A stretch of 48,460 nt of DNA from Bacillota bacterium (GTDB taxonomy: Bacteria > Bacillota > Bacilli > Alicyclobacillales > SLC66), in NCBI GenBank assembly GCA_021785975.1, contig JAJYOE010000006.1, forward strand, positions 1 through 48,460, given 5' to 3'. How positions within the stretch are numbered: the stretch's first letter is position 1; every line of letters begins with the position of its first letter. Under the pieces are notes generated by a model. The model searched no databases. It saw nothing but the letters and a program-made list of their open reading frames with translations, and was not told where the DNA came from. Below, piece after piece: positions 21,765 to 30,405 of the stretch. A program made the position numbers and the translations under genes.

Positions 21765-22829
21765 TTACAATCTTGCCAAAATCGCTTCTGTCATTTCCTT
21801 CGTAGATAACACTTTTTCGCCAGGCCTTGCAATGTCCTTGGTGCGAGCCCCTTCTGAGAGCGCCGCTGCCACCGCTCGCTCAATGCGGCTGGCTTCCTCT
21901 GACATTTGCAGCGAATAGCGAAGCATCATCGCCGCCGATAAAATGGTCCCTACCGGATTCGCGATCCCTTGTCCTGCGATATCTGGCGCCGAACCGTGAA
22001 TCGGTTCGTAAAGTCCAGACTTATCGCCAAGACTTGCCGAAGGCAACAGACCGATAGAACCTGTCAACACCGCCGCTTCATCACTGAGAATGTCGCCAAA
22101 AAGGTTTTCCGTCACTACGACATCAAAATAATGCGGTTTGGTCACCAGATACATCGCACAGGCATCGACCAGCACATGTTCCACTTGCACATCAGGATAA
22201 TCGCCCTTCATCTCTTCCACGATTTCCCGCCACAAACGTGAACTGTCCAGCACGTTCGCCTTATCGACAGAAGTCAGGCGCTTACTGCGGCCTTGCGCAA
22301 TCTCAAACCCACGGCGCACCACGCGTCTGATTTCAGGTTCCGTGTAGAGCATCGTATCTCTTGCGAAGCGCTCTCCTTCAGAATTCGATCCGCGCTCCCG
22401 CTCGCCAAAATAGACACCACCCGTCAATTCGCGCACAATCAGCAAGTCGACCGCACCTGCCACATCCGCTTTAAGTGGGGATGCGTCGATTAACTCTGGA
22501 AATGCCTTGACTGGCCTCAAATTAGCGTATACACCAAGCGCCTTGCGAAGCGCGAGCAACCCGCCCTCGGGACGCAGGTGACCTGGGCCCTTGTCCCACT
22601 TCGGTCCGCCAACTGCTCCAAGCAATACAGCGTCCGCGGCTAGCACGGCTTGCCTTGTCACCTCTGGAAACGGTTCGCCGGTTTCATCAATCGCCTTGCC
22701 GCCAAGGAGTTGCGAAGAAAACTGAATCGCACCTGGCTTCGTCACTTTTTCTAATACGCGAACGGCTTCACCGACAATTTCAGGGCCGATTCCGTCGCCT
22801 GGTAATAACACCACTTGATATGAAGACAC
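21765..22829 (-). CDS. leuB: 3-isopropylmalate dehydrogenase
   Basis: 354 residues, the standard LeuB length. It oxidises 3-isopropylmalate to 2-oxoisocaproate in leucine synthesis. LLPGDGIGPEIV at the N-terminus, RELTGGVYFGER near residue 137 and the metal/NAD region YEPIHGSAPDIAGQGIANP near residue 270 are diagnostic. The GTG at 22829 behind GAGGGAA is chosen; a TTG seven codons earlier would include the ribosome site in the protein. Last gene of the operon. leuA, leuC and leuD are not in this window. Confidence 0.95.
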   Translation of the reverse strand: MSSYQVVLLPGDGIGPEIVGEAVRVLEKVTKPGAIQFSSQLLGGKAIDETGEPFPEVTRQAVLAADAVLLGAVGGPKWDKGPGHLRPEGGLLALRKALGVYANLRPVKAFPELIDASPLKADVAGAVDLLIVRELTGGVYFGERERGSNSEGERFARDTMLYTEPEIRRVVRRGFEIAQGRSKRLTSVDKANVLDSSRLWREIVEEMKGDYPDVQVEHVLVDACAMYLVTKPHYFDVVVTENLFGDILSDEAAVLTGSIGLLPSASLGDKSGLYEPIHGSAPDIAGQGIANPVGTILSAAMMLRYSLQMSEEASRIERAVAAALSEGARTKDIARPGEKVLSTKEMTEAILARL

Positions 22830-22867
22830 TTGTTCGTTCCCTCTCTTCAAACCCTAACTCAGCAGGC

Positions 22868-23866
22868 CTATTTTTTAATGAAACTCATCATGGAACGCAG
22901 GGACTGACCCACTTGTTCAATTTGCAATTCCTCTTCGCGCCGTTTGATCGCCGAGAATGAAGGCCTTCCTGCTTGATTCTCAAGAATCCAGTTGCGCGCG
23001 AAGGTGCCTTGTTGAATGTCGTTCAAAAGACCTTTCATCGCCTTGCGAGTCTCGTCCGTCACGATTTTGTTCTGGGCCATATAGCCGCCGTATTCAGCCG
23101 TATCACTGATCGAGAAATTCATGCGAGAGAGTCCACCTTCGTAAATCAGGTCAACGATCAGCTTCATCTCGTGCATGCACTCAAAAAACGCTACTTCCGG
23201 CTGATAACCTGCTTCAACGAGCGTTTCAAAGCCTGCTTTAATCAAGCCTGCCAGTCCGCCGCAAAGTACCGCCTGTTCACCAAAAAGGTCGGTTTCAGTC
23301 TCTTCGCGAAATGTCGTCGTGAGCACCCCTGCTTTCGTGGCGCCGATGCCCTTTGCATAAGCAAGGGCGGTCGCCATCGCGTGGCCGCTCGCATCCTGTT
23401 CCACCGCGACAAGCGCAGGTACACCGCCACCGGACTCATACACCCGGCGTACCAGATGTCCGGGTCCTTTTGGCGCTACCATGACCACGTCGACAAATTC
23501 TGTCGGTACTACCTGACGAAAATGAATGTTAAAGCCATGGGAAAACATCAGGGTCTGTCCTTTACGAAGGTAAGGAAGGATTTCCTCACGGTAGACTTTG
23601 CCCTGGGATTCATCTGGCAACAGGATTTGCAGCACATCGGCCGTTTGCGCCGCTTCTTTGACGGAGACGACCTGGAAGCCGTCTTCTTCCGCTTGCTTTG
23701 CAGACTTTCCGGGGCGTTGCCCAATGATCACTTTGACACCGCTGTCGCGAAGGTTTTGCGCCTGCGAATGGCCTTGGCTGCCATAGCCTAGCACCGCTAC
23801 TGTTTTCCCTGATAACACACTCAAGTCCGCATCATTTTCATAAAACATATCCATCCAATTCGACAC
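22868..23866 (-). CDS. ilvC: Ketol-acid reductoisomerase
   Basis: 332 residues, class I KARI. It isomerises and reduces acetolactate or acetohydroxybutyrate for valine, leucine and isoleucine. Rossmann motif [14 protein letters not shown] near residue 26 and [12 protein letters not shown] near residue 131; the acid cluster [10 protein letters not shown] near 194 and the E-x3-E region follow. GTG start in GTGTCGAATTGG; in-frame ATGs shortly after are alternatives. Sits between ilvN and leuB. Confidence 0.96.
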
Positions 23867-23915: not shown

Positions 23916-24425
23916 TTATACCGCCGCATCGCTCGCTTCTTCCGTTCCAGAACGAAGTAGGGCGGTCGCTCCTGTACGGGAAATTTCGATGATGCCATAA
24001 GGTCGCAACAAGCCGATCAGCGCGTCGATTTTCTCCTCATCTCCCGTAATCTGCACGGTGATCGACGAATGTCCCACATCCACCACCGAGACGCGGAAAG
24101 GATCAAGAATATGCGATATTTCCTGGCGTTTGCTGCTTTCTGCCTTGACCTTGATGAGCGCCAGTTCGCGCTTGACGATTTTTTCCTTCGACATGTCGAT
24201 GACATCCAGCACGTCCACCAATTTGCCAACCTGCGTCAACACCTGCATGGCCATGGCTTCATCCCCGTGACTGACGATCGTCATACGACTGACCCCTGCT
24301 TCCTCCGCGGATCCAACGGTAATACTGGAAATATTAAAACCACGGCGGGCGAAAAGTCCTGCAATCCTCGTCAAAACACCCGGCCTGTCATTCACTAAAA
24401 TGGAAAAGGTGCGTTCGATGTCCAT
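23916..24425 (-). CDS. ilvN: Acetolactate synthase small (regulatory) subunit
   Basis: 169 residues: an N-terminal ACT domain (ILVNDRPGVLTRIAGLFARRGFN) that senses valine, plus the C-terminal half of the family (FRVSVVDVGHSSITVQITG). It controls feedback inhibition and stability of IlvB. ATG two nt after the ilvB stop, in TAAGCATG, so translation is coupled. Confidence 0.96.
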   Translation of the reverse strand: MDIERTFSILVNDRPGVLTRIAGLFARRGFNISSITVGSAEEAGVSRMTIVSHGDEAMAMQVLTQVGKLVDVLDVIDMSKEKIVKRELALIKVKAESSKRQEISHILDPFRVSVVDVGHSSITVQITGDEEKIDALIGLLRPYGIIEISRTGATALLRSGTEEASDAAV

Positions 24426-24427
24426 GC

Positions 24428-26194
24428 TTACTCTTCACTCCATTCCAGCGTCATTTCGTGGTTGCCTTTTCCAGGGGGAACCATGGGGAATACGTTCTCT
24501 TCTTCCTTGACGACAAAATCCATGATGACTGGACCGTCATGGGCGATCGCCTGTGCAATGATAGCTTCGGCTTCCGCGGGGTTAGTGGCACGCAGTCCCA
24601 GTGCGCCGTACGCCTCTGCCACCTTGACAAAATCCGGGGAGCTGATGCGACTTTCTGCGTATCGTTTTTCATAAAAAAATTGTTGCCATTGCCGAACCAT
24701 GCCAAGAAACCGGTTGTTGATGATGGCGATCTTCAAGGGAAGCCCTTGCTCCACAACCGTCTGCAGTTCCTGGATGTTCATTTGAAAACTTGCGTCTCCC
24801 GCTACACAGATGACCGTTTTTTCCGGCTCAGCTACCTGTGCGCCAAGCGCGGAAGGAAAACCAAATCCCATCGTTCCGAGTCCTCCAGAGGTCACAAATT
24901 GGCGAGGACGGGAATAAGGGTAAAACAGCGCCGCCCACATCTGATGTTGACCAACTTCGGTCGTCACAATCGCCTGACCGCCTGTGTGCTTCGCAAGCAG
25001 TTCAACGACTTGTTGAGGTTTCAAATCATCACTGGTGCCGTGATAACGCAGTGGCCATTCATTATCCCAAGCCTTGAGTTGCGCCAGCCAGTCTTTGGTA
25101 TCGGGATGAAGGTGGTGCTGCAACAGCATCTCCAGCGTGTCTTTAATGTTCGCAACCACAGGGACTTCGACCTGTACGTTTTTTCCGATCTCCGCTGCAT
25201 CAATATCCACGTGAACTTTTTTGGAATGGAGAGAAAACATCTGCAGTTTCCCTGTCACTCGATCATCAAAGCGTACGCCAAACGCAAGTAACAGATCACA
25301 ATCCGTAATCGCCTTGTTGGCGGCATACGTGCCATGCATACCAAGCATACCGACAAACTGTTCGTCGCCTGCAGGATAGGCACCAAGTCCCATCAGTGTG
25401 GAGACCACAGGAATCTGAGTTTGTTTTGCAAATTGCCTCAATAACTCTGATGCGCCGGAGGAGATGATGCCACCGCCCACATAAAGTAGCGGTTTTTTCG
25501 CCCCGCTGATCAGTTGGGCAATGGCTTCCACTTGTTCTTTTGCTGGCGCAGTTGGAATCTTATACCCTCTTGCGGCAGGTTGAGGCAATGGTTGGTAGGT
25601 GGCCGGACCCGCAGTGATATTTTTAGGAAGGTCGATCAAAACCGGTCCTGGTCTACCTGAATTGGCAATGTAAAAGGCATCGGCCAGCACCTGCGGCAAG
25701 TCGTTGATATCGCGCACCTGATAGTTGTGCTTAGTCACTGGCATAGTGATTCCCATGATATCTGCTTCCTGGAAGGCATCTCGACCAATGCTCTCCATCG
25801 TCACTTGACCAGTCATCACCACCACAGGCGTGGAATCCATGTAGGCATCTGCGATGCCCGTCACCAGATTGGTGGCACCAGGACCTGAGGTCACCAGCAC
25901 CACACCGGTTTTCCCTGTCACCCTGGCGTAACCTTCCGCCGCATGGATGGCCCCCTGCTCATGCCTGGTCAGGATGTGTCGAATAGATGAATCATAGAGT
26001 GAATCGTAAATTGGTAACACCGCGCCACCTGGATAACCGAAGATGACTTCGACGCCCGCCTCTTTTAAGAGCGTGATCAGCAGATCTGCTCCCGTTTTCA
26101 CGTTCGGCGGGTTCACCTGCCCCACCGTCTGCGCCGAATCGGTCGCACCTTCACCAGCATGGACAGTATCTGTCTCTTTAATAAACTGGTTCAT
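24428..26194 (-). CDS. ilvB: Acetolactate synthase large (catalytic) subunit
   Basis: 588 residues, a ThDP enzyme that condenses pyruvate with pyruvate or 2-oxobutyrate. The catalytic Glu is in TRHEQGAIHAAEGYAR near residue 83; the ThDP motif VAGDASFQMN and a downstream NN are near 462; GYPGGAVLPIYD is N-terminal. About 35 polar residues precede the core. It follows ilvE by 136 nt that contain no T-box, only the short inverted repeat at 26265-26278. Confidence 0.96.
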   Translation of the reverse strand: MNQFIKETDTVHAGEGATDSAQTVGQVNPPNVKTGADLLITLLKEAGVEVIFGYPGGAVLPIYDSLYDSSIRHILTRHEQGAIHAAEGYARVTGKTGVVLVTSGPGATNLVTGIADAYMDSTPVVVMTGQVTMESIGRDAFQEADIMGITMPVTKHNYQVRDINDLPQVLADAFYIANSGRPGPVLIDLPKNITAGPATYQPLPQPAARGYKIPTAPAKEQVEAIAQLISGAKKPLLYVGGGIISSGASELLRQFAKQTQIPVVSTLMGLGAYPAGDEQFVGMLGMHGTYAANKAITDCDLLLAFGVRFDDRVTGKLQMFSLHSKKVHVDIDAAEIGKNVQVEVPVVANIKDTLEMLLQHHLHPDTKDWLAQLKAWDNEWPLRYHGTSDDLKPQQVVELLAKHTGGQAIVTTEVGQHQMWAALFYPYSRPRQFVTSGGLGTMGFGFPSALGAQVAEPEKTVICVAGDASFQMNIQELQTVVEQGLPLKIAIINNRFLGMVRQWQQFFYEKRYAESRISSPDFVKVAEAYGALGLRATNPAEAEAIIAQAIAHDGPVIMDFVVKEEENVFPMVPPGKGNHEMTLEWSEE

Positions 26195-26330: not shown

Positions 26331-27212
26331 TTAAATTCTCCGTCCTTGCTTTCTTGCCACTTCCCGGAAGGATTTCAAGAGCCGCTGTGTAACGGGGCCT
26401 GGCTTGCCGCTGCCAATACTGCGGGCATCGACCTCCACCACAGGAATCAGTTCTGCCGCTGTGCCGGTAAGGAAGCATTCATCCGCCACATACACGTCAT
26501 GACGGGTAAATGGCGTTTCCAAAAGCGGAATTCCTTCCTCTTCGCAGATGTCCATGATCGTATGACGGGTGATTCCATCCAGTGCGCCAAGGTATACAGG
26601 CGGAGTAATCACTTTGCCCTTTTTTACAATAAAAACATTGTCGCCAGAGCCTTCGCAGACATACCCCTGCGAGTTGACGGTGAGTGCCTCGAGGACACCG
26701 GCGTTGGCCGCTTCCAGCTTCACCATGATGCTGTTCAAGTAATTGAGCGACTTGATTTGTGGATTTAACGCATTGGGGCTGTTCCTGGTCGTAGCTACTG
26801 TTACAATACGCAACCCATTCTCGTAAAATTCAGCAGGGAAAAGTTGGATGTCGTCCGCAATAATCACGACATTGGCCTTTGAACAACTGCGTGGATCAAG
26901 TCCCAGATCGCCAGGTCCTCTGGATACGACGAGCCGGATATACCCGTTTTGCAACTGGTTGGCGCGGACCGTATCGAGCACTGCTTTCGCCATTTCTTCG
27001 ACTTCCATCGGGATTTTAAGTAAAATCGATTTTGCCGAATCGTACAGCCGCTCCAAATGTTCGTCGAGGCGAAACACTACGCCGTCATAAATGCGGATTC
27101 CTTCAAATATTCCGTCCCCATATAAAAAACCGTGGTCAAAAACGGAGACAACGGCCTTTGCCTTAGGAACCAATTCGCCATTGAGATAGATCAACCTGTC
27201 TTCGGTTGCCAT
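26331..27212 (-). CDS. ilvE: Branched-chain amino-acid aminotransferase
   Basis: 293 residues, fold type IV PLP enzyme that makes valine, leucine and isoleucine from their keto acids. N-terminus YLNGELVPKAKAVVSVFDHGFLYGDGIFEGIR is typical in pieces: VFDHGFLYGDG near residue 24, the PLP-lysine in QIKSLNYLNS near residue 156, GSGDNVF near 193 and LTGTAAELIPV near 251. AGGAG seven nt before ATG. It is preceded by a riboswitch and terminator, so its expression should be conditional. D-amino-acid aminotransferase is a related alternative, but the operon argues for ilvE. Confidence 0.93.
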   Translation of the reverse strand: MATEDRLIYLNGELVPKAKAVVSVFDHGFLYGDGIFEGIRIYDGVVFRLDEHLERLYDSAKSILLKIPMEVEEMAKAVLDTVRANQLQNGYIRLVVSRGPGDLGLDPRSCSKANVVIIADDIQLFPAEFYENGLRIVTVATTRNSPNALNPQIKSLNYLNSIMVKLEAANAGVLEALTVNSQGYVCEGSGDNVFIVKKGKVITPPVYLGALDGITRHTIMDICEEEGIPLLETPFTRHDVYVADECFLTGTAAELIPVVEVDARSIGSGKPGPVTQRLLKSFREVARKQGRRI

Positions 27213-27246: not shown

Positions 27247-27313
27247 TAAAAGGATAGCCCCGCAGCATTCAGACTTGCGTGGGATCACGCTAGCCAGAAC
27301 TTGCCGCGAGGCT
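27247..27313 (-). terminator. Riboswitch-controlled terminator before ilvE
   Basis: On the minus strand AGCCTCGCGGC (27303-27313) pairs with GCTGCGGGGCT (27256-27266) over 11 bp with two G-U pairs, followed by ATCCTTTTACG. A small GCGTG-ATCC-CACGC hairpin lies in the loop. The 5' arm overlaps the 3' end of the aptamer helix GAGG-ATAAAAG-CCTC, so ligand binding should prevent the terminator and turn ilvE on. The T-tract is short. Confidence 0.7.
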
Positions 27314-27412
27314 TTTATCCTCAAGGTGTACACCGGAAAAACCATTCCCGATGCGGTGTCGCTTGGTCCTTGCCCGCAATTGCGGCGGAACCCTAGACAC
27401 CCTCCTGACGTA
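27300..27412 (-). ncRNA. ykkC subtype 2 riboswitch, probably ppGpp-sensing, in the ilvE leader
   Basis: Conserved blocks read in order on the minus strand: GGGTGTCTAGGGTTCCG, a CCGC-AATT-GCGG hairpin, GGACCAAGCGACACC, a second hairpin closing with CCGGTG, then TACACC and GAGGATAAAAGCCTC. The CTAGGGTTCC, CCAAGYGACAC and GGATARAAGCC blocks define the ykkC family, and the middle one fits subtype 2 (PRPP or ppGpp) better than guanidine-I. GGTGTC (27396-27401) can pair with GACACC (27355-27360). Subtype 2a, which binds ppGpp, is known for branched-chain amino acid genes including ilvE, so I favour ppGpp; PRPP types usually precede purine genes. The ligand is inferred from context. Confidence 0.85.
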
Positions 27413-27431
27413 CAAGAAATTGATTTTAAAT

Positions 27432-27460
27432 ATTATATATTGAATTTTGTGTAAGGTCAA
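27432..27460 (-). promoter_or_regulatory. Sigma-A promoter of ilvE
   Basis: On the minus strand TTGACC (27455-27460), exactly 17 bp, then perfect TATAAT (27432-27437). Transcription should start about 13-15 nt before the riboswitch. The -35 box is 6 bp from the divergent thrR -35 box. Confidence 0.85.
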
Positions 27461-27466
27461 TTTAGT

Positions 27467-27495
27467 TTGCAAGCCTATCAAAATCCAGCTATAAT
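27467..27495 (+). promoter_or_regulatory. Sigma-A promoter of the thrR-hom-thrC-thrB operon
   Basis: TTGCAA (27467-27472), exactly 17 bp, then perfect TATAAT (27490-27495). Just downstream is the 10-bp palindrome AACAATTGTT (27510-27519), a candidate autoregulatory site for the ACT regulator. Confidence 0.85.
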
Positions 27496-27582
27496 GTCCA
27501 TTGTAAAAAAACAATTGTTCATGTAATGTAGACACATTGATTTCACCCCAAGTCATCATCACACAGAGAGCGGGAATATTGC

Positions 27583-28023
27583 ATGTCTGAAGACCCATAT
27601 TATCTCGTTCGACGTTCCCATTTGCCAGACGTCATGCAACGAACCATTCAAGTGATGGAACTCCTGAACCAACAACCTCATCATAGCGTACTGGAAGCCG
27701 TCAGAAAGGTGGGAATATCGAGAAGCGCCTTTTATAAATACAGAGAAGCGATCAAACCTATTTATTCTGCCATCGATCAACAAATTGTGACGCTCGCGCT
27801 GACGCTGATGCATGAACGCGGTGTGTTGTCTGATGTCCTAAACCGTCTGGCCTCCAGCGGATCAAATATTTTAACCATCAACCAATCACTACCGCTTCAA
27901 GGAAAGGCTACGGTCATCATATCGGTGGAGACGAGGAACATGGAAATGGGTTTGGACGAAGCGCTTGACCATTTGCGCACACTTTCCGGTGTAGAGCAGG
28001 TGAACATCGTCGGTCAGGGATAA
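27583..28023 (+). CDS. ACT-domain protein ThrR/PheB, likely regulator of threonine synthesis
   Basis: 146 residues: an N-terminal helix-turn-helix-like part (VLEAVRKVGISRSAFYKYRE near residue 36) and a C-terminal ACT domain (ALTLMHERGVLSDVLNRLASSGSNI). This is the PheB/ThrR family (UPF0735). In B. subtilis ThrR represses hom-thrCB; here the gene is the first of that operon, 24 nt before hom, so autoregulation by threonine is the simplest reading. Ligand binding is inferred. Confidence 0.85.
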   Translation: MSEDPYYLVRRSHLPDVMQRTIQVMELLNQQPHHSVLEAVRKVGISRSAFYKYREAIKPIYSAIDQQIVTLALTLMHERGVLSDVLNRLASSGSNILTINQSLPLQGKATVIISVETRNMEMGLDEALDHLRTLSGVEQVNIVGQG

Positions 28024-28047
28024 ACCACAATAAAGGAGTGTGCGACC

Positions 28048-29337
28048 ATGGATATCAAAATAGGACTACTCGGTTGCGGGACGGTAGGCGGAGGGGTCGT
28101 GGAACTGATCCGCATGAGGGCAGACAAAATTGCTGCCATGACCGGACTTCATCCTGTCATCACGGATGTATTGGTCCGGGACCCTGATAAAAAAAGAAAT
28201 GTCACATTTGAACATGAATTGCTAACCACAAATGCCAATGACATTATCCAAAATGATGAGATCAAAGTGGTCATTGAAACCATTGGGGGAATCGAACCAG
28301 CGAAGACCATGATCCTTGCCGCGCTAAGGGCAGGTAAACACGTGATTACTGCAAACAAAGATCTAATCGCGCTCCACGGCCCGGAAATCATGGAGGTTGC
28401 GGAACAGGAAAAGCTCGACTTTTTATACGAGGCCGCAGTCGGAGGAGCCATTCCGCTCATTCGTCCATTGAAGGAGTCGCTGACTGCAAACGAAATCTCC
28501 GACTTAAAAGGCATCATCAATGGCACCACCAATTACATCCTCACCAAAATGACGGAAAGCGGTGCCAACTATGAAGAAGTTCTGCGAGAAGCACAGGAAC
28601 TTGGTTACGCAGAAAGCAACCCCAGCAGCGATGTGGATGGCCTTGATGCTGCGCGCAAACTGACCATTCTCGCCTCTATCGCATTTGGCACCAAAGTGAG
28701 TCTTGACGATGTCAAAGTGGATGGCATCCGCTCGATCACGGCAGCCGATGTCGCCTATGCACACGAACTGGGGGCGGTGATCAAACTGCTCGCGGTGGGT
28801 AAAGACGATGGACACGCACTCTACCTGCAGGTGCGCCCGACGATGGTTCCAAAGGCACACCCCCTGGCACATGTGAATGATGCGTTCAATGCACTTTTTG
28901 TCCACGGTGATGCAGCGGGAGACCTGATGTTCTTTGGGCGAGGTGCAGGTTCTCTTCCTACAGCAAGCGCCATGGTCGGAGACGTCATTGAGACGCTGCG
29001 CAACATGAGCATGGCCATCCCCTCGCGCTTTCGTACAGGCCCTGTGACGACAAAAGCAGTGAAAAAAGGGTCACCGGAGCCGCTCCGTTATTACCTGCGA
29101 ATGCATGCAAAGGATCGCCCCGGCGTTTTTGCCCACATTGCTACCATCTTTTCCAATGCAGAAATCAGCATGGAGACCGTGTTGCAAAAACGTGCGCATG
29201 ACAACCAGGCAGAAATTGTCATCGTCACTCACGAGACTCCTTCAGGATCGATTGAATCGGCCATTCTTCAATTGAACGATTTAAATGACCTGCTCGAGAT
29301 CAAAAATGTCATACCGATGGAGAAGGGAGACGCGTAA
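28048..29337 (+). CDS. hom: Homoserine dehydrogenase
   Basis: 429 residues with a C-terminal ACT domain, the Bacillus-type Hom. It reduces aspartate semialdehyde to homoserine, the branch point to threonine and methionine. NAD(P) motif GLLGCGTVGGGVVELI near residue 6, KGIINGTTNYIL near residue 155, the catalytic-lysine region GLDAARKLTILASIAFG near 193; the ACT part starts near DRPGVFAHIATIFSN. ATG behind AAAGGAG. Confidence 0.97.
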   Translation: MDIKIGLLGCGTVGGGVVELIRMRADKIAAMTGLHPVITDVLVRDPDKKRNVTFEHELLTTNANDIIQNDEIKVVIETIGGIEPAKTMILAALRAGKHVITANKDLIALHGPEIMEVAEQEKLDFLYEAAVGGAIPLIRPLKESLTANEISDLKGIINGTTNYILTKMTESGANYEEVLREAQELGYAESNPSSDVDGLDAARKLTILASIAFGTKVSLDDVKVDGIRSITAADVAYAHELGAVIKLLAVGKDDGHALYLQVRPTMVPKAHPLAHVNDAFNALFVHGDAAGDLMFFGRGAGSLPTASAMVGDVIETLRNMSMAIPSRFRTGPVTTKAVKKGSPEPLRYYLRMHAKDRPGVFAHIATIFSNAEISMETVLQKRAHDNQAEIVIVTHETPSGSIESAILQLNDLNDLLEIKNVIPMEKGDA

Positions 29338-29340
29338 TCA

Positions 29341-30405
29341 TTGAATACTGCATACCAGGGCTTGATCGAACGTTACCGATCTTATTTGCCGGTCACTGAC
29401 CGCACCCCGAATTTATCCTTGAATGAAGGTCGAACTCCACTCATTCCCGCCCTGTCGTTATCCAAGGAGTTAGGGCTTGAAGTCTACCTGAAATTTGAAG
29501 GCGCAAACCCAACCGGTTCATTTAAGGACAGAGGCATGGTGATGGCGGTAGCAAAGGCGCTTGAAGAAGGAAGCCAAGCGGTCATCTGCGCATCGACTGG
29601 CAACACGTCCGCCTCAGCTGCCGCCTATGCGGCACGCGCGGGAATTCGCGCCATCGTGCTGATTCCGGATGGCTACGTAGCACTGGGTAAACTCGCTCAG
29701 GCGCTCTTATACGGTGCAGATGTGATTTCCATTGCAGGCAACTTTGATAAGGCGCTTGAACTGGTGAGAGACATTGCTGCAACAGAAGCGGTCACGCTGG
29801 TTAATTCCGTGAATCCCTACCGTCTTGAAGGGCAGAAAACTGCCGCCTTTGAGATCTGCGACGACCTTGGCAAAGCACCTGACTACCTCGCCATTCCTGT
29901 TGGCAATGCCGGAAATATTTCTGCCTATACAAAAGGCTTTCGCGAATATCATGAGCATCATCACTCCGGCATCCCCCATATGATCGGCTTTCAAGCAGCG
30001 GGTGCCGCGCCAATCGTTCGTGGTGCCATTGTCGAAAAACCGGAAACCGTGGCCACCGCCATTCGCATCGGCAATCCCGCTAGTTGGCAATTGGCCGTAG
30101 ACGCCATTCACAGCACGGACGGTTTGATCGATGCCGTGACAGACGATGAAATTCTCGATGCTCAACGCTTTTTGGCTCGCCAGGAAGGTGTGTTCGCAGA
30201 ACCCGCATCAGCGGCCTCCGTGGCAGGGCTATTGAAAAAAGGCAAAGAAGGTCTGATTGCAAAAGGGTCAAAAGTCGTCTGCGTACTCACCGGCAACGGA
30301 CTCAAGGATCCAGACACGGCCGTACGCAACAGCAACGCCAAATCCCTGACTGTCGATGCCAATAAAGATGCCGTTTGGCAAGCCATCATGGGAGGTCAAT
30401 CGTGA
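29341..30405 (+). CDS. thrC: Threonine synthase
   Basis: 354 residues, the short bacterial type. PLP enzyme that converts O-phosphohomoserine to threonine. N-terminal [22 protein letters not shown]-lysine in [13 protein letters not shown] near residue 60, [19 protein letters not shown] near 82 and the [12 protein letters not shown] phosphate loop near 187. TTG start, three nt after the hom stop, with AAGGGAG upstream. Its TGA stop is shared with the thrB start in GTGA. Confidence 0.97.

Follow-up and report, generated by a model that had tools for sequence, protein, structure and literature searches.

A probable ppGpp-type ykkC riboswitch ahead of an ilvE-led branched-chain amino acid operon in a bacterium of the order Alicyclobacillales

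How a bacterium of the Alicyclobacillales adjusts transcription of its branched-chain amino acid (BCAA) genes, and which ligand the RNA ahead of them recognizes, is the question raised by an aptamer of the ykkC family at 27408-27294 on the minus strand, upstream of ilvE-ilvB-ilvN-ilvC-leuB. It lies in a stretch of 48,460 nucleotides (contig JAJYOE010000006.1, assembly GCA_021785975.1), here called the window. The initial annotation had placed a likely ppGpp riboswitch of subtype 2 at 27247-27460, a range that includes a promoter besides the riboswitch. From the analysis described below, it is highly likely that the leader is a singlet ykkC subtype 2a (ppGpp-type) riboswitch, which would act as an ON switch by antitermination.

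The leader and its operon

The leader is preceded by a sigma-A-type promoter (27432-27460, minus strand; TTGACC, 17-nt spacer, TATAAT; 11 of 12 matches), from which transcription would start near 27425. Both hexamers and their spacing are identical in a sister genome (L025), and the flanking sequence differs. Downstream, on the same strand, lies ilvE (26331-27212), encoding a class IV branched-chain aminotransferase (Pfam Aminotran_4, 2.4e-61), which bears out the gene assignment of the initial annotation; its start codon is the ATG at 27212, with AGGAG upstream as the ribosome site. The genes for the large and small subunits of acetolactate synthase (ilvB, 24428-26194; ilvN, 23916-24425), ketol-acid reductoisomerase (ilvC, 22868-23866), and a leuB-like isopropylmalate dehydrogenase (21765-22850) follow, also on the minus strand, and the five genes are presumably co-transcribed as an operon. 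A 102-aa minus-strand open reading frame (27290-27598) was rejected as spurious because it spans the promoter and the aptamer. On the plus strand, a divergent operon (27583-30405) encoding an ACT-domain protein, homoserine dehydrogenase, and a threonine-synthase-like PLP enzyme is equipped with a separate promoter-like site of the TATAAT type near 27466-27495.

Aptamer fold and overlapping terminator

The conserved blocks previously described as occurring in the right order were located on the minus strand as CTAGGGTTCC (27397-27388), CCAAGCGACAC (27366-27356), and GGATAAAAGCC (27320-27310). The unconstrained minimum-free-energy (MFE) fold of the leader up to the 3' arm of the terminator is a P0/P1/P2/P3 four-way junction (-58.1 kcal/mol). 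In this fold, the 5' strand of P0 (UCAGG, 27404-27408; 27409-27403 in the extended MFE fold) pairs with its 3' strand (UCUGG, 27298-27294), the P1 arm (27355-27401) contains 6 bp between 27401-27396 and 27360-27355 around CUAGGGUUCC...GGACC, and P2 forms a hairpin at 27330-27354. The subtype marker nucleotide C49 (27361) is C, as in subtype 2. The ACAC at 27326-27329, predicted to be the ligand-pocket junction, contains at 27328 the equivalent of C75, the residue that pairs with the guanine of ppGpp in the G96A structure (PMC6031431). P3 (27304-27326) is composed of the 5' strand CCUUGAGG (27326-27319), the loop AUAAAAG, and the 3' strand CCUCGCGG (27311-27304), with neither an extra G96 nor an S-turn motif, and is followed by A-A-G-U (27302-27299), containing the equivalents of G104 and G105 (A and G), ahead of the P0 3' strand.

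An 11-bp terminator stem reusing the 3' arm of the last aptamer helix, as claimed earlier, was recovered in the form of an intrinsic-terminator hairpin (27257-27312, minus strand), in which 27312-27302 pairs with 27257-27267 around an inner hairpin at 27290-27277. Its predicted energy is -35.1 kcal/mol, and none of 500 mononucleotide shuffles was equally stable. Since the 5' arm takes in the entire P3 3' strand, P3 and the terminator are mutually exclusive; once the terminator 3' arm is added to the fold, the terminator is favoured (-79.0 versus -61.4 kcal/mol for the aptamer-enforced fold). The hairpin is accompanied by an imperfect U-rich tract, UAUCCUUUU (27248-27256), whose UAUCC is able to pair with GGAUA at 27320-27316. 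A simple pattern scan called no terminator at the leader because its loop limit of 3-8 excludes this shape. Across 11 ilvE leaders of the window's family, C-to-U and G-to-A changes occur in the shared P3/terminator strand; most of them have matching changes in the P3 5' strand as well as in the terminator 3' arm, and a few terminator cells are unpaired. Such matched changes in both helices are evidence for selection on the aptamer as well as on the terminator. An ON-type expression platform, in which the aptamer would exclude the terminator as initially proposed, is the best-supported reading of the shared strand, the covariation, and the computed fold energies.

Ligand assignment and competing explanations

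Covariance models of the core, made without P0 from sequences of other taxa, gave the window leader 67.0 bits for the PRPP type, 65.4 bits for the ppGpp type, and 40.2 bits for guanidine. A clearly better PRPP score had been named in the initial annotation as the outcome that would tell against ppGpp; the actual lead of 1.6 bits is a tie that speaks neither way, the core models not separating subtypes 2a and 2b here, and it was not used as ligand evidence. Taken together, the leaders of the window's group show no clear preference for either of the two models. For held-out purine-context leaders, the PRPP model mostly scored about 10 to 30 bits above the ppGpp model.

The same annotation held that the ligand assignment rests on gene context. 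The context is indeed one of BCAA genes, but positions within the RNA also carry evidence, as seen from 135 relatives outside the window's order, sorted by downstream gene into 83 purine and 52 BCAA (ilvE or ilvB) leaders, and from a ppGpp riboswitch consensus taken from papers later than the original one (PNAS 2018). In this comparison, which takes gene context as the ligand label and in which the sequences are related by descent and the counts not independent, N95-G96-R97 in the P3 3' strand was found in 83/83 purine leaders, 0/52 BCAA leaders, and 0/11 leaders of the window's group. Conversely, G4, preceding A5 in the P0 strand, is present in 27/52 BCAA leaders and 10/11 of the window's group but in 0/83 purine leaders, and CAGGAG ahead of P1 in 18/52 BCAA leaders and again in none of the 83 purine leaders. 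The log-odds of the P0 region amount to +23.0 bits toward the ppGpp type, the top purine leader reaching 9.2. A104, present in the window, occurs in 5/52 BCAA and 1/83 purine leaders.

These positions gain meaning from what is known of nucleotide 96, which is a fixed G (>97%) in PRPP RNAs and is reported to be other than G, or absent, in ppGpp RNAs; its change from G to A turns a PRPP aptamer to ppGpp by about 40,000-fold (PMC6031431). A C75U change in ppGpp RNAs has been reported to switch the preference to adenine analogues (cited in PMC6031431). Because the two P3 strands of the window leader are of equal length, no extra nucleotide is available to be flipped out. Opposite U4 in P3, ten of the 11 leaders of the group have G and one (L043) has A, the nucleotide pairing in P3 and the terminator alike; given this A, the G remaining in P3 fits a paired residue better than an obligatory G96. 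As aligned, the window leader keeps C75 and lacks the G96/S-turn motif, with some alignment ambiguity that L043 eases. Judged from the position comparison together with the BCAA context, ppGpp, already suspected initially, is very probably the ligand. Against this assignment stand the single P3 G, which could in principle be read as G96 since a deletion from GG to G cannot be placed unambiguously, the A in place of G104, a phosphate contact, and the imperfect U-tract.

The first of these points leads to the opposing proposal that the RNA is a PRPP riboswitch (subtype 2b) acting by an identical antitermination mechanism, with the leftover G of P3 as its flipped-out G96. It is favoured by the nominal lead in the core model (67.0 versus 65.4 bits) and by the same 5' strand, CCUUGAGGG, in some purE leaders (L144 type). 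We nevertheless regard it as improbable: no member of the group has the N95-G96-R97 that all purine leaders have, GAG before P1 occurs in 0/83 purine leaders, the P0 region points to the ppGpp type by some 23 bits, the very position in question is occupied by A in L043, a member of the group, and the genes downstream are those of a BCAA operon and not of a purine operon. It is quite improbable, too, that the ilvE leaders of the family form a variant of their own, with a pocket altered so as to favour another alarmone (e.g., pGpp or pppGpp over ppGpp) or with a shifted affinity, as their deleted nucleotide 96, the pyrimidine-pyrimidine mismatch in P3, and, in the window's genus, A104 might suggest.

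A plain Rfam annotation would call the RNA a guanidine-I riboswitch (subtype 1), which was its best and sole Rfam match, extending over the leader end to end with 48 bits (E 1.4e-7; cmscan of 501 bases against 4227 families) and being the single Guanidine-I match in its own genome (about 60% complete). The match is above chance, yet 15 bits under the gathering score of 63 bits, as for a subtype 2 RNA, and at the gathering threshold the scan of the whole window yielded no match. The ykkC family is split by a marker that is A46 in guanidine-I RNAs and the pyrimidine C49 otherwise (PMC6031431); in the window it is C and not A, P0 is present, the guanidine model stays far below the other two (40 versus 65-67 bits), and the downstream genes have no guanidine-related function. 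The subtype 2 assignment thus holds, guanidine is excluded as the ligand by the marker base and the model scores, and the guanidine-I identity is left with next to no probability. Control of another kind, by a T-box, by peptide attenuation, or by a constitutive terminator behind a decayed aptamer, deserves mention since T-box regulation is frequent in BCAA operons, the U-tract is imperfect, and CodY, encoded in 15 of the 18 family genomes, could act on the promoter. It appears very unlikely, as the window has no match to the T-box (RF00230) or to any other Rfam family at the gathering score, the leader contains no open reading frame with a good start that is rich in Ile, Leu, or Val, and compensating changes keep both aptamer and terminator in the 11 leaders. 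In one relative (L032), a T-box lies about 4 kb from the ilvE leader on the opposite strand.

For the ppGpp-type riboswitch preferred here, the following mechanism is predicted. The aptamer would fold first as the P0-P1-P2-P3 four-way junction. At low ppGpp, 27312-27302 would leave P3 to pair with 27267-27257, forming the terminator ahead of ilvE. Upon amino-acid starvation, ppGpp would rise through the Rel-type protein of the genome, a predicted ppGpp synthetase whose 780-aa open frame contains a RelA_SpoT domain, and the guanine of ppGpp would pair with C75 (27328); P3 and P0 would then be held, the terminator blocked, and ilvE-ilvB-ilvN-ilvC-leuB transcribed. We infer ppGpp binding, the ligand identity, and the switching at this leader. 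The known ppGpp switches likewise turn on BCAA genes by antitermination (PMC10687018, PMC5912903), and the mechanism proposed here matches the one probed for the Clostridiales ppGpp riboswitch (PMC10687018). CodY may control the promoter in addition.

Comparison with known ykkC RNAs and occurrence in relatives

The window leader is a well-formed, ordinary addition to a known riboswitch class. With the ppGpp (2a) riboswitches, such as the RNA of Clostridiales bacterium oral taxon 876 and other ilv leaders, it has in common the ykkC core, the pyrimidine marker, P0, the ACAC pocket, BCAA genes, the lack of the PRPP S-turn motif, a terminator sharing the last aptamer helix, and a purine tract able to pair with the U-tract. 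It differs from them in having no nucleotide 96, in a conserved pyrimidine-pyrimidine mismatch in P3, in the A at position 104 (also in its sister), and in a P3 3' strand of 8 nt, compared with 9-10 in the other ilv leaders compared. The PRPP (2b) riboswitches share the core, the pyrimidine marker, P0, and an overlapping terminator, whereas the window leader lacks N95-G96-R97, has G4 in the P0 strand, and precedes amino-acid rather than purine genes. Guanidine-I RNAs (subtype 1, RF00442) share the overall fold and the conserved blocks, but the window leader scores under their cut-off, with C instead of A at the marker, P0 present, the P3 S-turn bases changed, and no guanidine genes. In the T box(Leu)-ppGpp tandem leaders of BCAA operons, a ppGpp-type aptamer likewise stands before BCAA genes; the window leader, in contrast, is a singlet without a T-box.

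Several other ykkC-type RNAs were observed in the relatives. The reported gene contexts of the ppGpp type (2a) comprise BCAA genes, glutamate synthase, and natA. In the glutamate synthase (gltB) leaders of the window's family (L040, L042, L044-L055) and of another family (L333), CTAGGGTTCC is replaced by CTAGGGATCC. Of the 14 scorable ones, 13 contain the PRPP-type N95-G96-R97 (L053 has A), unlike the filing of glutamate-synthase ykkC RNAs with ppGpp in the literature. Within the same order, the family to which Alicyclobacillus belongs has PRPP-type leaders ahead of a gene resembling that for xanthine phosphoribosyltransferase (xpt, named by sequence alone), with the PRPP motif in 11/11 (L013-L016, L018, L020, L021, L023, L027, L029, and L035). 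Leaders of NUDIX-hydrolase-like genes (L036, L038, L039, and L041), with G as the marker and a different P3, resemble ykkC subtype 2c (nucleoside diphosphate type). One short contig (G051:C13) contains two guanidine-I riboswitches (L012 and L031; 1709-1830 and 4692-4813) about 3 kb apart. No ykkC-type RNA was found in two genomes of the window's genus (G046 and G047; one of them 94% complete), and the switch therefore seems patchy within the genus.

Where the covariance models tied, the motif of three residues told the PRPP type from the ppGpp type. The leader also points to a practical gap: with Guanidine-I as the sole matching model in the Rfam version searched, RNAs of this kind are missed at the cut-off and misnamed guanidine switches if it is relaxed. 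The tandems of T-box and guanidine riboswitches before BCAA operons reported in a survey (PMC12452182) are probably ppGpp-type RNAs named by that Rfam model. Altogether, the leader described here would extend ppGpp-type control of BCAA operons to a further family of the Alicyclobacillus-containing order.
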